A DNA stretch of 64,000 nucleotides. Source: Synechococcus sp. WH 7805 (GTDB taxonomy: Bacteria > Cyanobacteriota > Cyanobacteriia > PCC-6307 > Cyanobiaceae). The stretch is taken from positions 1,269,008-1,333,007 of the forward strand of contig NZ_CH724168.1 in assembly GCF_000153285.1 (NCBI RefSeq), in the 5' to 3' direction. Below the pieces are notes generated by a model. That model did not search any database. It saw only the letters and a list, made by a program, of their open reading frames with translations, and had not been told where the DNA came from. How positions within the stretch are numbered: the first letter of the stretch is position 1; every line of letters starts with the position of its first letter. A program made the position numbers and the translations under genes. Positions 32,194 to 35,886 of the stretch are shown one piece after another.

Positions 32194-35100
32194 TTGAGAG
32201 CCTTCCGGGGGCCAATCACCATCACTGGTCTCCTGGCCATCGCATCTGCTTTGTGCGTACCTGTTGGAGCGCAATCAGCAGAAGGAGTTGTCAACTCCGG
32301 GATGCCTGCCGATTCGGGTTCACTGCCACGGGTGAATGATTCACCGAAAGTTGATTCAGTTCCATTCCCTTCGAGCAACGACACGCAGGATCGAGCTTCA
32401 GCCAGTCCTCAACCTCCGGCTGAACTTCTGCTGAAGTCCAACAGTCAGGTGTTCGACGCACGTCGAAATCTGTTCATTGCTTCAGGTGATGTTCAAGTCA
32501 CCCTTAACGGTGGCGTGTTGCAGGCCGATCGGATCGAATTCGACTCTGAGTTCAACACGCTCTTCGCCCGAGGCAGCGTGCGTTTCCGCAAGGGATCTCA
32601 GTACTTTCAAGCCAGCACGCTGCGCCTCAGCCTGATCCAAGGCAGTGGAGAGATGGAAGACGTTTATGGCGTCCTCGATCTCGACACAGCAGCGCTTGAT
32701 CTCAATCCCTTCCCCTCCAAAAGCAATTCCGACCGAGTTCGACCAGGTCAGTCCTCGGATGCGCCAGAACAAACGCTCCCGGTTCGGGAGAGCAGTGGCC
32801 TGGGATTCCCGACAGCCCTCGACATTGAGCTTGATGCAAATACTTCAGAACGACTGAGTCCGCAAGGGGATAACAGCACCTTCTGGGATCTGGAGCTCCC
32901 CCCCTCGCCGGAATGGATGGGCCCTGAGGTTTCGGAGCCACAATCTTCCGAAGATCGCCAGGGCATGGCATGTCCAGCGGAACTGCCTCCGATTCCCGAC
33001 TGGCACCCCTATCCCTGGGCTGTCACCGTCTGGGGTGGACAGATGATCGACGCGAATTTCGGTGACACCTTTATCGCTAAAGGTCGCTTGCGTGCCGAAT
33101 ACCTGCTGGGCGTCAGCATGCAAAAGCGCATCTGGCGCGCAGGGCCCGTGGCCTTCGAGCTGGAAGCCGATCTCTTTGGCCACCAGGCCTACCAACAACA
33201 AGGTGGCGCCTTCAACCAGAGCGTCCCCAATGCCAGCACCCCTGACCAGGCCTACCTAGAGGGCATCCTCGGTCTTGGTGTCCGTCTCTGGGTCCAGCCC
33301 TGGCTGAGCTTTGGATTCGTCGAGGGCATCAGTTACAACTCCTCCGTCAGCAACTACGAACGCACCTTCCGAGAGAACTTCTCCCAGCTGCTGAACTACC
33401 TCGGCTTCGAAGTTGAAGCCGCTGTCTCTCCCCAGCTGTCCATGGTCGGACGCATCCACCACCGATCTGGCGCGTTCGGCACTTACAACGGCGTCAAAGA
33501 GGGAAGCAACGCTTACCTACTCGGCGTCCGTTATCGCTGGGGAGAAGACAAACCCGAAGCCCTATCACCTGAGGCACCACCGCCTCTGGGTTGTCCAGAC
33601 CCTGGACGCATCGCACGCCTCGCGCCCCAGACGATGAGCGAGCAACTCGAAGACATCACACTCGGCAACCCAGTGCGTCAAGCGCAGACGCCATCAGCCA
33701 ACGCAGCATCCTCCACTGTCCTGTCCCAGACACAAGACTCCAAGCTTTCTCTGCCTGAACAGGAGCGACTGCGAGCAGAAGCCATCGCTGCCATCGATCA
33801 GCGCATCAGCAGCATTCAGCTGCAGCAGCGCCTCGTGATTCAGCGCAGCCGTGGATCCGAAAATCTCCGGAACAACGAAGTTTTGGCCGCCAATCGCTTC
33901 GGCGGCGTACGGCCTTCCCAGCTCAACACCCAGGGACAAACCCAGTTCATCACTGGTGAAATCAGCCGTTGGCGCGTTCAGGCCGCCAGGGTCCGAATCA
34001 CTCCGGATGGGTGGAGTGCCGATCGCATGGGTTTCACCAACGATCCCTATACCCCGGCGCAGACGCGCATCGATGCCGAAAACGTTGTGGCAACGGAAGA
34101 GGAAAATGGCGACATCTTGATTAAGAGTGAACGCAATCGCCTGATCGTTGAGGAGCGACTGCCGATTCCCGTATCGCGAACACAGAGAATCCAGAAACAG
34201 GAAGAAGTGGAGAATCGCTGGGTTTTCGGTATCGACAACGACGATCGCGATGGATTCTTCATCGGCCGGAATCTGCGGCCAATCGAATTGGCCGACGACC
34301 TCGTTCTCCAGATTCAGCCGCAGTTCCTACTGCAGCGTGCCATCAATGGTGACAACAACAGCTACGTGGCGCCTGGTGCATCCATCGACAGTGGAGACGT
34401 CACTCAAGACAACACCGTCAGCGACCTTTTCGGGGTGGACGCGGAACTCAGTAGTCAGTTCCTGGGGTTAACAACCAACGTAGAAGCCGAAATCAGTACT
34501 TTCAATCCAAGCAACTTCCTGAACGGCAGCCGTTTCTCGGGCTCAACCAGGCGCACAGTCACCCTTCCATGGCTCGGAGACGTGAGCGCACGCGTTTTCG
34601 GTGCCTATCGCTTCCGAGCATTTAATGGGTCACTGGGGGAAACGGATGTCTACAGCGCCTATGGGGTCCTCGCGGAACAAAAAGGCGATTGGAACTGGGG
34701 GAAACTCAAGAACGACTACATCTGGCGCATCGGGGTCGGCAATTACCAAGCTGAAAGTTTCACCAGCACCAACCTGATCGACACCCTGAGGGCCAACTTC
34801 TATGGCTCACTGAACAGTCGATACCAACTGTGGCGTGGCAAGCCAGCAGAGCTGACACCGGAAGCGGCCTATCGCTACAGCCCCGTTGCGATTGTGCCTG
34901 GGCTGGAGCTGCGGACGAATCTGAACACAGCGCTGGCAGCTTTTGGAGACGGAACGCGCCAGAACACCATCAGCCTTACTGGAGGCCCCACACTTACCCT
35001 TGGCAACTTCAGCAAGACATTCCTGGATTACACCCAACTCTCGATCGCTGGTGGAGGCACGTTGAAGCAGGGGTCCAGTCCTTTCGAATTCGACCAAGCG

Positions 35101-35403
35101 GTTGACTTAGGCACCCTTGGGCTCGGCCTGACACAGCAAATTGCAGGGCCTCTCCTTCTGAATGCAGGTGTAGGCGTGAATATTGATCCAGCATCCGAGT
35201 TCTTCGGCAATGTGATCAATTCGAACATCGAGCTGCGCTGGCAGCGAAGGTCCTATGACCTTGGTTTTTACTACAACCCTTATGAGGGCGTCGGTGGATT
35301 CCGCTTCCGTCTCAACGACTTCAACTTCACCGGAACTGGCCGACCTTTCATTCCCTATTCGCCAGACCCTCTCCGCAACCCGCTCGATAGTCGCCCCTTC
35401 TAA
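32194..35403 (+). CDS. LptD-like outer-membrane protein (DUF3769) with an embedded PagL-like barrel domain
   Basis: 1069 residues. A signal peptide (MRAFRGPITITGLLAIASAL ending at a GAQSA site) precedes an OstA/LptA-like periplasmic domain (about 75-170). A Pro/Ser-rich linker leads to a domain at about 270-450 that begins PWAVTVWGGQMID and ends in GRIHHRSGAFG and GSNAYLLGVRYRW. After a second linker the DUF3769 region (about 580-1069) makes the LptD-type barrel ending in FRFRLNDFNF. LptD inserts lipopolysaccharide into the outer leaflet. The 270-450 part resembles PagL/acyloxyacyl-hydrolase barrels: His423-Arg-Ser425 fits the His-x-Ser motif, with Glu436 as possible third residue. The start is TTG, chosen because it alone gives the signal peptide; the next in-frame ATG (32302) would remove it. 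Enzyme activity is inference. Confidence 0.8.
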   Translation: MRAFRGPITITGLLAIASALCVPVGAQSAEGVVNSGMPADSGSLPRVNDSPKVDSVPFPSSNDTQDRASASPQPPAELLLKSNSQVFDARRNLFIASGDVQVTLNGGVLQADRIEFDSEFNTLFARGSVRFRKGSQYFQASTLRLSLIQGSGEMEDVYGVLDLDTAALDLNPFPSKSNSDRVRPGQSSDAPEQTLPVRESSGLGFPTALDIELDANTSERLSPQGDNSTFWDLELPPSPEWMGPEVSEPQSSEDRQGMACPAELPPIPDWHPYPWAVTVWGGQMIDANFGDTFIAKGRLRAEYLLGVSMQKRIWRAGPVAFELEADLFGHQAYQQQGGAFNQSVPNASTPDQAYLEGILGLGVRLWVQPWLSFGFVEGISYNSSVSNYERTFRENFSQLLNYLGFEVEAAVSPQLSMVGRIHHRSGAFGTYNGVKEGSNAYLLGVRYRWGEDKPEALSPEAPPPLGCPDPGRIARLAPQTMSEQLEDITLGNPVRQAQTPSANAASSTVLSQTQDSKLSLPEQERLRAEAIAAIDQRISSIQLQQRLVIQRSRGSENLRNNEVLAANRFGGVRPSQLNTQGQTQFITGEISRWRVQAARVRITPDGWSADRMGFTNDPYTPAQTRIDAENVVATEEENGDILIKSERNRLIVEERLPIPVSRTQRIQKQEEVENRWVFGIDNDDRDGFFIGRNLRPIELADDLVLQIQPQFLLQRAINGDNNSYVAPGASIDSGDVTQDNTVSDLFGVDAELSSQFLGLTTNVEAEISTFNPSNFLNGSRFSGSTRRTVTLPWLGDVSARVFGAYRFRAFNGSLGETDVYSAYGVLAEQKGDWNWGKLKNDYIWRIGVGNYQAESFTSTNLIDTLRANFYGSLNSRYQLWRGKPAELTPEAAYRYSPVAIVPGLELRTNLNTALAAFGDGTRQNTISLTGGPTLTLGNFSKTFLDYTQLSIAGGGTLKQGSSPFEFDQAVDLGTLGLGLTQQIAGPLLLNAGVGVNIDPASEFFGNVINSNIELRWQRRSYDLGFYYNPYEGVGGFRFRLNDFNFTGTGRPFIPYSPDPLRNPLDSRPF

Positions 35404-35415
35404 GGCGCTTCAGAT

Positions 35416-35886
35416 CTAATCGGGACCGCCGCCATAAATCAGATGGCTCCCAGTGAGATCGGCCCCGGCAAAACGCATGCCGTCCGTTCGCACATTCGGG
35501 GCATAGGCATTGATCACCACCGCATCGCGCAGGTCAGCCCGTCGAAGGTCTGTATCTGTGAGGTCGGCATTGCTGAGCCGTGCTCCGCGCAGATCAGCTC
35601 CATCGAGCTGAGCACCGCTGAGGTCGGCTCCTTCAAGATTGGCCTCCCGAAGATCCACTCCTCGCAGATCGGCATCGCGCAGATCAACACCAATCAGATG
35701 CGCCCCCTGAAGGCTTAGCCCACGCAGATCGCATCCAGCACAGGCTCCAAGATGAAGCAATCGCTCCTGCGGTGTTGCATAGGGAACAACCTCAATGGAT
35801 TGCGGCGTTCCCGCTTGTAGAGCCATGGGTGCCAGCAGTGCTGACATCAACATGGCTGCCAAGGAATATGACGTCGAATTCACCAT
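35416..35886 (-). CDS. Secreted pentapeptide-repeat protein
   Basis: 156 residues. A signal peptide (SLAAMLMSALLAPMALQA) and a short mature N-terminus containing LLHLGACAGCDLRG are followed by about 18 pentapeptide repeats of the A(D/N)LXX type (for example VDLRDADLRGVDLREANLEG), which build a right-handed beta helix. Such proteins are abundant in cyanobacterial lumen and periplasm and mostly uncharacterised. The two cysteines near the repeat start could form a disulfide. The gene is convergent with the LptD-like gene, 12 bases apart. Confidence 0.88.
   Translation of the reverse strand: MVNSTSYSLAAMLMSALLAPMALQAGTPQSIEVVPYATPQERLLHLGACAGCDLRGLSLQGAHLIGVDLRDADLRGVDLREANLEGADLSGAQLDGADLRGARLSNADLTDTDLRRADLRDAVVINAYAPNVRTDGMRFAGADLTGSHLIYGGGPD

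Follow-up and report, generated by a model that had tools for sequence, protein, structure and literature searches.

Within the window, a 64,000-nucleotide stretch of the Synechococcus sp. WH 7805 genome, one gene encodes a cyanobacterial LptD, the outer-membrane end of LPS transport, that contains a second and smaller barrel of eight predicted strands in addition to its large one. This unusual architecture is real. The reading of the small barrel as an enzyme, proposed in the initial annotation with a different third active-site residue, is plausible after correction: we rate the chances as about even that it is a PagL/OMPLA-like His-Ser-Asn acyl-ester hydrolase within the LPS translocon, acting most likely on lipid A. 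The features of the gene are listed in Table 1.

Table 1. Features of the LptD gene, with positions counted from the first nucleotide of the window
Feature	Position	Strand	Basis or remark
LptD (DUF3769) gene with inserted barrel	32194..35403	+	1069 aa, TTG start
Putative signal peptide, residues about 1-26	32194..32271	+	sequence, by eye
LptA/OstA-like periplasmic jellyroll, first part, residues 79-162	32428..32679	+	AlphaFold and fold match
Linker 1, residues 165-259	32686..32970	+	low pLDDT; median identity 21% over 171-259
Cys260	32971..32973	+	invariant, 37/37 full-length rows
Inserted eight-stranded outer-membrane barrel (predicted), residues 275-449	33016..33540	+	AlphaFold and structure alignment
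His423, proposed catalytic base	33460..33462	+	alignments
Ser425, proposed nucleophile	33466..33468	+	alignments
Asn439, proposed third triad member, place of PagL Glu140	33508..33510	+	alignments, fold alignment ends
Cys467, possible disulfide with Cys260	33592..33594	+	invariant, 37/37 full-length rows
Linker 2, residues 468-589, short helices	33595..33960	+	pLDDT mostly low
Remaining jellyroll and large LptD barrel, residues 592-1040	33967..35313	+	AlphaFold, Foldseek; PF12600 588-1044

The 1069-residue protein is a cyanobacterial LptD. PF12600 (DUF3769), the only match in a Pfam search of the whole protein, covers residues 588–1044 with an E-value of 3.3e-141 (471.6 bits against a cut-off of 20.5), and a passage in PMC4365693 gives DUF3769 as the Pfam name for cyanobacterial LptD. 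Together with the jellyroll strands at 79–162, this bears out the OstA-like part (75–170) and DUF3769 barrel (580–1069) expected from the initial annotation. The TTG start is found at the same place in the Synechococcus WH7803 homologue, and the closest named match of the middle segment is from a Synechococcus metagenome-assembled genome (96% identical). Long minus-strand ORFs flank the gene in the window; the one just downstream (35416–35886, minus strand) looks pentapeptide-repeat-like by eye. In a whole-chain Foldseek search, rows 1–13 were all LptD chains, 12 by title and the other, 4q35, titled only 'a membrane protein', being presumably LptD as well. The TM-scores to these chains were low (0.10–0.19, rmsd over 30 A), probably reflecting the uncertain placement of the parts of the model.

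AlphaFold predicted eight strands for residues 262–456 (44 rows), with a mean pLDDT of 91.5 and a pTM of 0.86. For the full chain (37 rows) the mean pLDDT was 66.4 and the pTM 0.41, a value that supports the local folds but makes the relative placement of the parts unreliable; this model contains the same eight strands at 275–449, a jellyroll from residue 79, a large barrel reaching residue 1040 and low-confidence linkers on both sides of the small barrel. The segment 270–450 is thus predicted to be neither disordered nor part of the LptD barrel, and the earlier picture of a separate beta domain ending in HHRSG (422–426) and GSN (437–439), flanked by linkers and forming one of two barrels in a single chain, held. 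It had also been placed between two halves of LptD. The middle position is right, but since the LptA chains 2r1a and 2r19 align across model residues 72–618 and 71–617, the small barrel seems to interrupt the periplasmic jellyroll, lying in one of its loops, instead of separating two completed halves.

No other module of the protein is as well conserved as the small barrel. Among 38 long homologues, the barrel had a median identity to the window protein of 68%, compared with 58% for DUF3769 and 54% for the OstA part, and the two linkers had values of 21% and 35%. Since the barrel is encoded at 45 loci of the genome contigs searched and its median identity exceeds that of the other parts, it is far beyond chance. 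The best 30 LptDs of the phylum search, all from other families, share the OstA-like jellyroll and large barrel with the window protein but lack the small one; the gap between jellyroll and DUF3769 is 55–71 residues in 29 of them, a range that leaves out the split match of the 30th (L055).

PF12600 was found in 141 of 291 phylum genomes and in 265 of 271 family genomes, and the small barrel in 135 of the 271, nearly always fused. The domain order proposed for the window protein recurs in its relatives, as in 125 of the 135 genomes (counted by eye) the barrel-bearing frame has 947 aa or more, which leaves room for the fusion. In one other genome the barrel lies in a 787-aa frame, a length also given for the DUF3769 match on the same contig, and five have it in shorter frames, taken as cut by contig breaks. 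The last four all belong to the genus g138 (4 of its 10 genomes) and encode the barrel in frames of 321–518 aa, with the LptD gene on a different contig. Another cyanobacterial family also encodes stand-alone barrels, in 3 of 57 genomes (L115, L134 and L135), as do plasmids of the Alphaproteobacteria Skermanella, Chelativorans, Aminobacter and Agrobacterium (L121–L124). These stand-alone HHRSG barrels (the seven just named and the g138 proteins L125–L128) are the same domain and keep the His, Ser and Asn, but unlike the fused protein they have frames of about 196 to 518 aa without an LptD part; the searches made returned no family name for them. The four g138 proteins have two cysteines in the Ser-Asn loop (CIKAC or CITAC) that are absent from the aligned fused rows. 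Genome G528 contains, beside the fused L159, a second, divided barrel copy near two contig ends, with the C-terminal half including HHRSG and GSN in L131 (2004–2333, minus strand) and the N-terminal half in L132 (115–837, minus strand); this may be a stand-alone paralogue that the assembly split.

Because the relatives are separate proteins in a sister genus, in another cyanobacterial family and in Alphaproteobacteria, the barrel is probably an inserted module that passed from the stand-alone to the fused state. The barrel tree is poorly resolved (the fused rows group together in 8% of 200 bootstrap trees, and the alphaproteobacterial outgroup does not fall on one side of a branch), and the direction therefore rests on the DUF3769 tree (51 rows), built by a quick method and carrying open forks and long-branch warnings. 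In that tree g145 and g138 plus g10 branch before the fused group, which also includes ten LptDs without the barrel, from small genomes, adjoining the named Prochlorococcus rows. These data suggest one insertion between two cysteines, with later losses in Prochlorococcus-like genomes.

The two cysteines, C260 and C467, bracket the small barrel, and a spacing of 206–215 residues between their counterparts was seen in 43 of 46 rows; the three remaining rows are truncated proteins. All 11 LptDs read from g10, g129, g138 and g145 are barrel-less and have two cysteines 24 to 32 residues apart, located between the jellyroll and DUF3769 as in the fused proteins (in L162 and L163 the pair was assigned by position only). 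A short CP...GCP stretch is present at the barrel site of L129, L130, L151 and L160–L167, and is possibly the original disulfide hairpin. Since E. coli LptD requires a disulfide bond, as stated in a passage of PMC3526765, the pair may matter for folding here too; C260 and C467 perhaps form a disulfide closing the base of the barrel.

Comparison with solved folds agrees with PagL, yet does not single it out. With the model of the barrel alone, VIA-align placed PagL (2erv) first (Z 16.4, 1.9 A, 135 residues aligned), followed by OprF (Z 15.5) and a designed barrel (15.1), PagL and OprF being tied by the rule of the tool; when the full-chain model was used, PagL (16.7) came after OprF and the designed barrel (16.9 each). 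Foldseek with the barrel alone ranked OmpA first, and PagL was absent from the best 50 of 883 matches. At the sequence level, PF09411 (PagL) had no match in the window protein, matched 1 of 44 fused domains (E 0.62), and gave 15.0–15.3 bits with 3 of 4 alphaproteobacterial relatives against a gathering score of 23. Over 283 phylum genomes it yielded one protein above the cut-off and 29 at E up to 1; the former is L077 (1489–2406, minus strand) of genome G011. Pfam and NCBIfam searches with the barrel segment gave no useful match, and a PDB sequence search with it returned a single match, a ribosomal protein (E 0.73). Matches to DUF3187 (8 of 44 members, best E 0.028) and OMP_b-brl (2 of 44 members, best E 5.2e-5) were taken as general barrel similarity.

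In hhalign comparisons with PagL, alignment A1 gave E 0.16 over 10 columns, A2 0.045 over 96, and A6, which combines 5 fused rows with 11 stand-alone relatives from two phyla (16 rows), 0.003 over 120; the 5 fused rows alone gave 0.12 over 9 columns. As controls, A6 was compared with 12 DUF3769-barrel windows (best E 0.017 over 27 columns) and 60 column shuffles keeping the alternation were run, one of which was as good as the A6-PagL match. The sequence kinship with PagL is suggestive only. Of the initial description of this segment as PagL-like, what stands is that 2erv is among the closest solved folds; a Pfam match above the cut-off is not part of the evidence.

H423, S425 and N439 are present in all 45 cyanobacterial rows covering them (the 46th is gapped there) and in 16 of 16 A6 rows. 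The even register is the more hydrophobic one in all eight strands and was taken as lipid-facing. The only residues of this register invariant in both the 44 fused domains and the 16 A6 rows are H162, S164 and N178 in domain numbering, which correspond to H423, S425 and N439. By strand register, H423 and S425 would thus face the membrane, and the invariance and register analyses place a His-x-Ser on strand 7, facing lipid, as in PagL. Where PagL has an acid at Ser+12, the small barrel has Asn at Ser+14.

The residues H126, S128 and E140 of 2erv, which we take to be the PagL catalytic triad, stand 24, 22 and 10 residues before residue 150, with which the end of the VIA-align alignment pairs domain residue 188. 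H162, S164 and N178 stand 26, 24 and 10 residues before the latter, suggesting that the loop of the small barrel is two residues longer than that of PagL and, provided that the last strand aligns without gaps, that N439 would occupy the place of Glu140. The hhalign alignment pairs the three residues with the triad in the same way. The Ser-to-Asn spacing in A6 is 14 in 11 rows, 13 in Skermanella and 15 in the four g138 rows, whose loop reads CDNN; as it is off by one in 5 of the 16 rows, aligning N439 there needs a one-residue gap.

The third residue was initially taken to be Glu436. Among the 45 covering cyanobacterial rows, this position is Glu in 41 and Gly in 4, and Glu is missing from 9 of the 11 stand-alone relatives (L115, L121, L124–L128, L134 and L135), L122 and L123 having it. 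Glu436 was therefore rejected as the catalytic acid, being variable where N439 is invariant, while His423 and Ser425 were retained. In 11 PagL-type proteins (A5), the Glu140 place is occupied by Asp (5), Asn (4) or Glu (2), and three of the four with Asn have a Glu just before it, at Ser+11, the spacing of Glu436.

We propose that i) a once free-standing eight-stranded barrel was inserted into the periplasmic jellyroll of cyanobacterial LptD, ii) it would reside in the outer membrane, with long linkers connecting it to LptD, iii) strand 7 would carry H423 and S425 close to its outer end and strand 8 would carry N439 at its start, all three lipid-facing, iv) their side chains would be arranged as a Ser-His-Asn triad, comparable to the triads of OMPLA and the PagL-type enzymes, and v) an ester-linked acyl chain would be removed from an outer-leaflet lipid, most likely lipid A fresh from the attached LptD. 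The fuller form of this proposal is an LPS translocon with a built-in lipid A deacylase, in which the large barrel would insert LPS and the small one deacylate it on arrival, the latter belonging to a new enzyme family with a PagL-like barrel and an OMPLA-like triad that is also free-standing in Alphaproteobacteria; to this we give somewhat less credence than to the hydrolase as such. That half of the family genomes lack the barrel counts against the hydrolase reading.

The same triad and enzyme class could instead act on a glycerolipid, the small barrel then resembling OMPLA and, as a phospholipase or galactolipase, removing misplaced lipids from the outer leaflet at the LptD site. In the third position the barrel has the Asn of OMPLA, not the Glu of Pseudomonas aeruginosa PagL, and three of the alphaproteobacterial plasmid relatives lie among genes without LPS annotation; nevertheless, the attachment to LptD favours LPS as the substrate, the barrel has eight strands rather than the twelve of OMPLA, and PLA1 is not among the Pfam matches listed. 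We consider a glycerolipid substrate rather unlikely. On equal footing with it is a barrel without catalysis, which like OmpA or OprF would serve as a membrane anchor or docking site, positioning LptD or standing in for a partner such as LptE. OmpA, OprF and OmpW indeed fit the fold nearly as well as PagL, and 136 of 271 family genomes gave no match to the barrel, LptD being found in 265. What argues against such a role is that the sole membrane-facing residues invariant across two phyla are the His, Ser and Asn that match the PagL positions, and that free-standing relatives without LptD keep them. A degenerate enzyme, that is, an ancestral deacylase now merely a structural part of LptD, would fit the missing PagL-type HxSN and PN-G loop, but is very improbable given that all 45 covering cyanobacterial rows keep the triad and that the barrel is better conserved than the rest of LptD.

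For the preferred reading, a hydrolase acting on lipid A, the lipid A genes provide some context. The window genome encodes LpxC and has no PF03279 (late acyltransferase) match; as the primary lipid A pathway yields four acyl chains, a four-chain lipid A is expected. PF03279 is absent from 17 of the 21 genomes tested and present in four of g10 and g138 (G233, G268, G412 and G409). LpxC was uninformative as a marker for the barrel, 20 of the 21 genomes having it with or without the barrel. The primary paper on the lipid A of Synechococcus CC9311 and WH8102 reportedly describes three and four chains; a deacylase would explain three-chain forms, and four chains throughout would speak against constant deacylation. 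Table 1 of a review (PMC4113827) lists four acyl chains for the two strains, that is, no net loss from the four primary chains. A passage in PMC4515613 describes the lipid A of picocyanobacteria as phosphate-free.

Picocyanobacteria account for much of ocean photosynthesis. If the proposal is true, the fusion couples LPS delivery and remodelling at one site in these organisms, and the delivery and trimming of surface lipids may be the work of a single protein in the many cyanobacteria of oceans and lakes whose LptD bears the barrel. The fused barrel is also a natural tether for studying the neighbours of LptD, and the barrel family is now defined, with a testable candidate active site. A full-text search of open papers revealed, in the titles and abstract openings listed, no LptD-deacylase fusion and no cyanobacterial lipid A deacylase; the match in PMC6520794 lay in its reference list.

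To our knowledge, the known barrels that modify lipids (PagL, PagP, LpxR and OMPLA) all occur as separate proteins, whereas the small barrel is fused to LptD. It resembles PagL (PF09411, 2erv) in its eight-stranded barrel, with an HxS late in strand 7 and a polar residue opposite the His at the start of strand 8. It differs in having Asn439 instead of Glu140, at Ser+14 instead of Ser+12, in lacking the PN-G loop, and in the HxSG or HxSP of its family in place of HxSN: the residue after Ser is Asn in 11 of 11 PagL-type proteins (A5), and Gly in 15 and Pro in 1 of the 16 A6 rows. With OMPLA, a twelve-stranded enzyme controlled by dimerization, the eight-stranded small barrel would share the Ser-His-Asn triad with its HxS on the outside of the barrel.
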